Positions 7,247-9,778 of a stretch of 64,000 nt of DNA are shown piece by piece; position 1 is the stretch's first letter; every line of letters begins with the position of its first letter. The notes beneath the pieces were generated by a model, which was given only the letters and a program-made list of their open reading frames with translations, ran no database searches and had not been told where the DNA came from. The translations under genes were made by a program, and so were the position numbers. Origin of the DNA: Nitrospirota bacterium (GTDB taxonomy: Bacteria; Nitrospirota; Thermodesulfovibrionia; Thermodesulfovibrionales; Dissulfurispiraceae). The stretch is from assembly GCA_021791055.1 (NCBI GenBank), contig JAJYXI010000062.1:1-64000 (forward strand), in the 5' to 3' direction.

Positions 7247-8491
7247 CTGAAAACATATCTTATTCTCATCTTCTGTCTTTATATCCTCAAAGAGGCCTTT
7301 GAATATCTTGTTCAGTATCTCAATCTCAGGCATATGCGAAAGGCTGGAGCTACCATTCCTCCCGAGTTTGAAGGGAAGATAGACGAGGCCTTGCTGAAAA
7401 AGACCCAAGAATATGAGGCTGATAAAACGAAATTCGGCTTTGTTTCATCCATATTCGGCAACATAATTACTATCGCATTCATCTTCGGTGGCCTGCTGAA
7501 TATCTATAATTCTTGGACAGCATCGTTGAATCTCTCCTTTATCATTTCAGGATGGCTTTTCTTTCTGCTTCTGACCTATGCCGGCGAATTTTTATCCATT
7601 CCCTTCAGCCTTTACAGCATCTTTAAGATAGAGAACAAATACGGCTTCAATACCATGACCTTCAGACTCTGGATCTCGGATTTCATAAAATCGCTTATCA
7701 TCTCTACCATCATGATGTCCATTGTAATATTTGCAGGATTCTGGCTCATTCAATGGAGTCCTGATTACTGGTGGTTCTGGGTTTGGGGCTTCTTCTTTGT
7801 TTTCAGTGTTTTTATCATGTACATATCGCCTTATGTCATCGAACCTCTTTTCAATAAATTCACGCCTATCGAGGATGAATCTCTCAAGGGCAAAATCATC
7901 AGGTTGACGGAAAAGGCTGGCATTCATGCGAGCAGAATTTTAAGGATAGATGCATCAAAAAGGAGCAAGCATACAAATGCATATTTCACAGGCATAGGAA
8001 AAACAAAAAGGATTGTGCTTTACGATACATTGCTTGAAGGCATGAGCCACGATGAAATCATTGCTGTACTGGCGCATGAAATAGGACACTGGAAGAAAAA
8101 ACATTTATTGAAAACCCTTGCAGCATTCGAGGTGTTCTCTCTTATATCCCTTTATGTTTCGTACAGGCTGATTCAGAGCGATTTCCTTTTGTGGCTTTTT
8201 AATATCAGCACAAACACTATTTTTGCGAAGTTCATAATTCTTGCCTTCCTCGTAGGTATCCTTTCGCTGTTATTGCAGCCGGTTATGAATTTCTTCAGCA
8301 GGAGGCATGAAAGACAGGCTGACAGGGCTTCGTATTATCTGACAGGGGATTCGGAAAGTATGGTGAGTGCGCTTGTAAAGCTCTCAAAAGAAAATCTCTC
8401 GAACCTCTATCCGCACCCGCTTTATGTTGCTTTATACTATTCCCATCCGCCTATTCTAGAGAGGATAAGGTATATAAAGAATTTTCCTTGA
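7247..8491 (+). CDS. M48 family metallopeptidase (Ste24/CAAX prenyl protease 1-like)
   Basis: HEIGHWKKKH zinc motif; M48 N-terminal membrane domain is only complete if translation starts at CTG 7247 (aaggagg RBS). Confidence 0.85.
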   Translation: MKTYLILIFCLYILKEAFEYLVQYLNLRHMRKAGATIPPEFEGKIDEALLKKTQEYEADKTKFGFVSSIFGNIITIAFIFGGLLNIYNSWTASLNLSFIISGWLFFLLLTYAGEFLSIPFSLYSIFKIENKYGFNTMTFRLWISDFIKSLIISTIMMSIVIFAGFWLIQWSPDYWWFWVWGFFFVFSVFIMYISPYVIEPLFNKFTPIEDESLKGKIIRLTEKAGIHASRILRIDASKRSKHTNAYFTGIGKTKRIVLYDTLLEGMSHDEIIAVLAHEIGHWKKKHLLKTLAAFEVFSLISLYVSYRLIQSDFLLWLFNISTNTIFAKFIILAFLVGILSLLLQPVMNFFSRRHERQADRASYYLTGDSESMVSALVKLSKENLSNLYPHPLYVALYYSHPPILERIRYIKNFP

Positions 8492-9008
8492 GTATCCTGA
8501 AAAATTCGTCCAGCATTTCTTTTCTGAGGTCGACAATTTCATCGAGTTGTTTTATGAACATGCGATAAGGCTTTGCAGGGCCTTGTTCTATGTGCTCAAG
8601 CAGTGCATCGCAGAAATACCAGTTGCACCTGAAGGGTCTTACTGCTCTTTCTATGGTGCATCCGAATTCTGATAAGAACTGGCAGGGGTCGGTATCGCTT
8701 ATGCCTTCTTTGTAAATTGGCGGCTTCAGCCCCAGGGCATGGATGTATATGAGGTCTTCGTAATCGTAATATCCATGCTTGTTTATGCAGCAGACCTTTT
8801 CACAGTTCGGGCAGACGACTGCGGTGTTTTGCTGGATAAAGGCATCTATTCCATCGATTCTGAATCTTACGATTCGTGCAAGATCCTTGACATGACTGGG
8901 TTCGTCGGTGTGTTCGGATGAGAATGTTTTCAGAAGTTCTATTGCCTCATCCCAATCAGATCTCTTATGCCATGACAGTTCATGGTTGAGCAAATTCAAC
9001 AGTGTCAT
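8451..9008 (-). CDS. YkgJ-like cysteine-cluster protein
   Basis: CPNCEKVCC...CQFLSEFGCTIERAVRPFRCNWYFC; start chosen at MTLLNLLNHELSW rather than the longest ORF. Confidence 0.7.
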   Translation of the reverse strand: MTLLNLLNHELSWHKRSDWDEAIELLKTFSSEHTDEPSHVKDLARIVRFRIDGIDAFIQQNTAVVCPNCEKVCCINKHGYYDYEDLIYIHALGLKPPIYKEGISDTDPCQFLSEFGCTIERAVRPFRCNWYFCDALLEHIEQGPAKPYRMFIKQLDEIVDLRKEMLDEFFRILKENSLYTLSSLE

Positions 9009-9033
9009 AGTTGTATGGTATATTAAAAATACA

Positions 9034-9201
9034 ATGAAGTGCAAAAATTGTAACGGCGAACTAAGACTTATAATCGGCTGAAAGACCGTGTATCTCCGCT
9101 GCATGGAGTGCGGCAGGGAGTTCAAGGTCTCGGAATATATAGATGAAATCGACAGCGATACATGGGACAGGATAGCCCTGAGACCATGCAATCGTGCATA
9201 A
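9034..9201 (+). CDS. Dual-CXXC small zinc-ribbon-like protein with in-frame TGA at 9079-9081 (candidate selenoprotein or interrupted gene)
   Basis: MKCKNCNGELRLIIG[TGA]KTVYLRCMECGREFKVSEYIDEIDSDTWDRIALRPCNRA*; two CXXC motifs either side of a single in-frame TGA. Confidence 0.6.
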
Positions 9202-9211
9202 AAGGAGAGAT

Positions 9212-9778
9212 ATGGATAAACATTTGGCAAGGCTTGCTGAGATATATAAGGCAATAGACAATCTTTACGATGCAGCCATGAGGCATTACAATTTTAGCTG
9301 CGAGGGATGCACGGATAATTGCTGTGTCACTAAGTTTTATCATCACACCAATATAGAGGAGCTTTATCTTGCAGAGGGATTGGAAAGACTCGATGAAAAT
9401 AAAAAGAAAGAGGTTTTGTCCCGTGCAGAGGATGTTGTGAAGATTCATAATTCATCCCCTGAAGATGTAAGGGTTATGTGTCCTCTTAATGAAAATGGGA
9501 TATGCATTATATATGAGCATCGCCCCATGATATGCAGGATTCACGGCGTGCCATATCAGATGTTTAAGAAAAATATGTCCATAGAATTCGGCACTGGATG
9601 CTATAGGTTCATTAATGAAAAGCTGAACGAAAATATGCAGTATTTCATGTTCAACCGCACTGTTTTTTATGTTGAGATGGTAAAGGTGGAAAAGGAGTTG
9701 AGGGAGACTCTGGATATTACAGGGGATTATAAAAAGACCACGGCAGAGATGGTTGTGAGCATATTAAACCCAAATTGA
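9212..9778 (+). CDS. YkgJ family cysteine cluster protein
   Basis: CEGCTDNCCV...CPLNENGICIIYEHRPMICRIHG; RBS aaaggaga. Confidence 0.85.
   Translation: MDKHLARLAEIYKAIDNLYDAAMRHYNFSCEGCTDNCCVTKFYHHTNIEELYLAEGLERLDENKKKEVLSRAEDVVKIHNSSPEDVRVMCPLNENGICIIYEHRPMICRIHGVPYQMFKKNMSIEFGTGCYRFINEKLNENMQYFMFNRTVFYVEMVKVEKELRETLDITGDYKKTTAEMVVSILNPN

Follow-up and report, generated by a model that had tools for sequence, protein, structure and literature searches.

Known members of the family

Small proteins with two CxxC motifs and a selenocysteine (Sec) between them belong to NCBIfam family NF041197 (CxxC_Se_CxxC, dual CXXC motif small (seleno)protein). OS_HP3 from the Olavius algarvensis Delta 1 symbiont and "hypothetical protein DW" from Desulfosarcina are given under this accession in a 2026 review, where they are listed as selenoproteins without known function (PMC13188914), and one missed OS_HP3 member has been reported for deep-Sep (PMC12013277). 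A search of the open-licence literature found no description of the family in Nitrospirota.

The window (the whole 64,000-nucleotide stretch of DNA that was analyzed, from a Nitrospirota draft genome) carries a gene of this kind at 9034–9201. The original prediction had called it a candidate selenoprotein and had referred to small dual-CXXC proteins of anaerobes with Sec-containing members; that family exists and is NF041197, and the candidate is now supported by the family profile, the U/C alternation at the TGA column, the sel genes and a conserved hairpin. The protein matches NF041197 at 62.7 bits (curated cut-off 40; E 2.5e-17) over profile positions 1–52, and shares with the family a nearly full-length profile match and a Sec between the two CxxC motifs; no feature was found that separates it from the family, of which it is a Nitrospirota member. 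It has the same accession as OS_HP3 and DW, but these are from Desulfobacterota and have the review motifs RxU and GxU, whereas here the residues I-G precede the Sec. The gene thus adds a well-supported member to an already named, uncharacterized selenoprotein family, and the comparison of homologues below directly supports its Sec codon as well as its SECIS.

The gene and its reading frame

The features of the locus are as follows.

9034–9201, + strand: putative selenoprotein gene, family NF041197, MKCKNCNGELRLIIG-U-KTVYLRCMECGREFKVSEYIDEIDSDTWDRIALRPCNRA followed by the stop (ATG 9034 to TAA 9201)
9040–9051, + strand: first CxxC (Cys3-x-x-Cys6); Cys3 in 127/129 and Cys6 in 129/129 homologues
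9079–9081, + strand: in-frame TGA, residue 16, predicted to be read as Sec; across 129 homologues U in 122, C in 7 and no other residue
9100–9111, + strand: second CxxC (Cys23-x-x-Cys26), invariant in 129 homologues; its codons double as part of the putative SECIS stem
9212–9778, + strand: downstream gene for a CxxCxxCC (YkgJ-type, PF03692) protein; 27.2 bits, cut-off 23
8451–9008, − strand: divergent gene for a protein that is Cys-rich by eye, with no family match over cut-off

The product is 55 residues long, and the in-frame TGA is codon 16, between the two CxxC motifs. The stop at 9199–9201 is followed after a 10-nt gap by the next ATG at 9212. On re-reading, the frame, the TGA, the two CxxC motifs and this gap all proved to be exactly as first described. 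No Shine-Dalgarno sequence is evident upstream of the ATG at 9034. A standard gene finder would miss such a gene, cut it off at 15 residues or call it a pseudogene. From sequence and comparative evidence, and leaving its function aside, we are highly confident that 9034–9201 is an intact NF041197 selenoprotein gene whose UGA would be decoded as selenocysteine.

Conservation of the in-frame TGA

A scan of GTDB genomes gave 11 loci, all with TGA at the same codon and all from Nitrospirota wherever the group is recorded. A search with the NF041197 profile recovered the gene from 128 of 150 related genomes, 116 of them with scores above the curated cut-off, and from none of 14 controls; almost every copy contains a single TGA. 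In a phylum-wide sample it occurs in 99 of 246 genomes, mostly of the same class. To judge from the sequences, the gene pattern is far beyond chance, and so wide an occurrence (128/150, mostly Sec) points to a selenium-dependent role that is real and has been retained by the clade. Two genomes have second, divergent family copies that also bear a TGA (loci L164 in G022 and L165 in G087).

Among the 129 alignable homologues from related genomes the codon in the TGA column is TGA 122 times and specifies Cys in the other seven. The rival explanation first raised for the TGA was a nonsense mutation, taken here as a recent CGA-, TGG- or TGC-to-TGA change or a sequencing error in what would be a pseudogene; it could draw on the interruption of the frame itself and on the lack of a detectable tRNA-Sec(UCA) in the draft. 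Against it, the TGA is common to 122 of the 129 homologues from many genera, and at this column, which was to be checked for U or C versus R, the remainder are Cys and never Arg or Trp. Conservation over dozens of genera excludes a sequencing error at 9079, and retention of the TGA throughout the order rules out a pseudogene. Purifying selection moreover continues past the TGA: dN/dS is ∼0.05–0.13 against the closest homologues, with synonymous change dominant both before and after it, which bears out the coding character originally noted on its two sides. With the SECIS-like hairpin conserved as well (below), we consider a nonsense mutation hardly credible.

A functional peptide of 15 residues terminated by the TGA, with the downstream part separate or regulatory, is equally improbable. 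Translation as far as the TGA is mechanically feasible, but both parts lie in one continuous family model (profile 1–52), the Cys forms are single uninterrupted proteins, and no start codon is conserved just past the TGA.

The selenoprotein reading is also supported by the distribution of selB, which is absent from four of the seven genomes with a Cys form and from eight of the 120 with a TGA form (Fisher p = 0.0014, a guide only, the genomes being related by descent and not independent). Those eight TGA-bearing genomes lack selB at a strict threshold; several are incomplete and one is 99% complete, and we count them against the selenoprotein reading. Outside the two motifs, Cys52 varies, several members having Ser, Ala or Gly in its place.

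A SECIS-like hairpin downstream of the TGA

Published limits for the bacterial SECIS (bSECIS) are an apical loop of 3–9 nt with a G in its first two positions, a spacing of 16–37 nt and an MFE of at most −7.5 kcal/mol (PMC13188914). The following element lies within these limits for loop size, GG start, spacing and energy.

9093–9119, + strand: SECIS-like hairpin UCUC-C-GCUGCAU-GGA-GUGCGGC-A-GGGA, −12.9 kcal/mol

Its apical loop (9105–9107) starts with GG 23 nt past the UGA, and pair probabilities in the upper stem are 0.81–0.98. It differs from the bSECIS model in that the codons for both Cys of the second CxxC take up most of its conserved upper stem, which makes protein and RNA constraints coincide. 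It also differs from the hairpin first proposed here, CTCC (9094–9097) with GGAG (9105–9108), whose loop is the 5′ arm of the present element. That earlier pairing did not hold up: it is worth −3.3 kcal/mol, has a pair probability of 0.00, and is no commoner across homologues than expected from independent columns.

Taken without its homologues, the sequence from the window has a modest folding z-score (−1.1 to −2.9, depending on length), so the case for a SECIS rests on comparison. Most stem bases are fixed by Cys codons, and for this reason compensatory covariation is weak and RNAalifold on the ungapped alignment returns a four-pair core only (columns 21–24 with 30–33, 0-based); wobble positions and synonymous-codon controls were therefore used instead. 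Hairpin energy in the 122 TGA-bearing homologues averages −12.2 kcal/mol versus −8.8 in synonymous-codon controls (p = 6e-14), and in a second test TGA forms have a mean fold energy of −11.3 kcal/mol, as compared with −6.7 in synonymous controls and −5.5 in Cys forms. Codon usage came from within the hairpin region in the first of these tests and from outside it in the second; their results agree. The wobble bases inside the hairpin (+20, +23, +26, +32 and +35) are strongly biased, whereas those outside are much nearer expectation: +20 is C in 117 of 122 (34.5 expected), and the pair 20–34 is kept in 118 of 122 (55 expected).

The hairpin is lost in six of the seven Cys forms. The remaining one (L075 in G080) still has a strong hairpin (−13.7 kcal/mol) in a genome with no detected selB, as if Sec had been lost recently. 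With 122 Sec forms, seven Cys forms and decay of the hairpin in most of the latter, the family is well suited to studies of how Sec and Cys replace each other and how a SECIS is constrained. From its anatomy and the comparative evidence, the 9093–9119 hairpin would recruit SelB for decoding of the UGA at 9079–9081 as Sec.

Selenocysteine machinery in the genome

The original prediction made much depend on Sec machinery in the same genome. Three of the genes named there are present, selA (633 bits), selB (381 bits) and selD (329 bits), all over their cut-offs; selC alone was not found in the draft. The selD gene (C28:24299–25213, L030, in the draft genome G000) itself contains Sec, with an in-frame TGA at the usual Sec position (VRAAGUAAKMG), and the genome therefore has at least two UGA-Sec genes.

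No tRNA-Sec with a UCA anticodon was found in the 87 contigs of G000, nor was selC found beside tRNA-Ser (L195), in or beside selB (L021), with two patterns, or by similarity to the gene of G001. ARAGORN finds a clear tRNA-Sec(UCA) in both G001 and G002, of the same genus, and an assembly gap is likely the cause of the missing selC in the draft. The region next to tRNA-Ser(TGA), which is the selC site in same-genus relatives, differs in G000. One Rfam tRNA-Sec match over cut-off (C5:9343, L013) proved to be this tRNA-Ser(TGA) and not selC.

A tRNA-Sec-like gene in G000 raises the question of whether the UGA specifies some other residue, either through a code in which it means Trp or Gly or as Cys through a selC*-type tRNA-Cys. 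The selC* tRNA-Cys type is known from Nitrospirae, and some selC* tRNAs are reported with a UCA anticodon (PMC7609411). The gene at C71:61270–61392 of G000 (L014:1501–1623) looks like such a tRNA: it is 123 nt long, has an unusually long variable-arm insert and U73 followed by CCA, and lies just upstream of a gene that is YeeE/YedE-like by eye. Hits of 123 nt in G001 and G002 suggest that it is conserved in the genus. Its anticodon, however, is GCA, which should not read UGA. Furthermore, TGA is an ordinary stop elsewhere here (the downstream gene ends with it at 9778) and also terminates some homologues of the 9034–9201 gene, the TGA column alternates only with Cys, and SelA, SelB and SelD are present. 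Insertion of a residue other than Sec thus seems very improbable, and Sec remains the preferred reading of this UGA.

Predicted fold and possible functions

An AlphaFold2 model built with 12 sequences (pLDDT 80.8, pTM 0.54) is a zinc ribbon-like β-hairpin whose strands (residues 9–14 and 19–23) flank a turn that holds the Sec, with a CxxC at each end. The product is small and probably has a Cys4 zinc-ribbon-like core with the lone Sec in the turn of the β-hairpin. Searches of PDB folds with the model gave nothing significant (best E 0.17), and sequence matches were weak (best E 0.0056 over 30 residues) and mostly to zinc-ribbon or zinc-finger proteins; neither search found a characterized or solved relative. 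Small zinc-ribbon proteins such as ribosomal S27e and ZifS have two CxxC knuckles around a β-hairpin, as here, but their matches are weak, with no significant similarity of sequence or fold, and they are not known to carry Sec.

The function that we tentatively favor, at somewhat less than even confidence, is redox chemistry of the selenol/thiol type, in a small protein whose one reactive selenol would be exposed. In another reading, which likewise accepts the protein as a selenoprotein, the Sec would be a metal ligand together with the Cys4 set, perhaps in soft-metal binding or trafficking. Such a role would suit the lack of a CxxU or UxxC redox pair beside the Sec, the near-invariance of the four Cys, the preponderance of zinc-ribbon and zinc-finger proteins among the weak matches, and the putative metal-chelating domain of the downstream neighbor. 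Against it, the model puts the Sec in the turn and the CxxC motifs at the far ends of the strands, which would place it away from the metal site of known zinc ribbons; we regard this role as the main alternative and a close one, somewhat less likely than the redox role. Slightly more doubtful still is that this zinc-ribbon-like protein, with its lone Sec away from any CxxC partner, has a function (metal or electrophile sensing, for example) unlike that of thioredoxin-like selenoproteins. If it were so, selenium would occur here in a class of proteins for which no use of it is known.

Neighboring genes

Both neighbors had been taken for YkgJ-type proteins. This holds for the downstream gene by its PF03692 match; the upstream divergent gene has no match that would place it there. 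The gene neighborhood is partly conserved: a homologue of the 9212–9778 YkgJ-type protein sits downstream in 29 of the sampled genomes, and a gene for an NYN/YacP-like protein (named by eye) is found in 38. Only 25 nt (9009–9033) lie between the start of the selenoprotein gene and that of the divergent Cys-rich gene on the minus strand.
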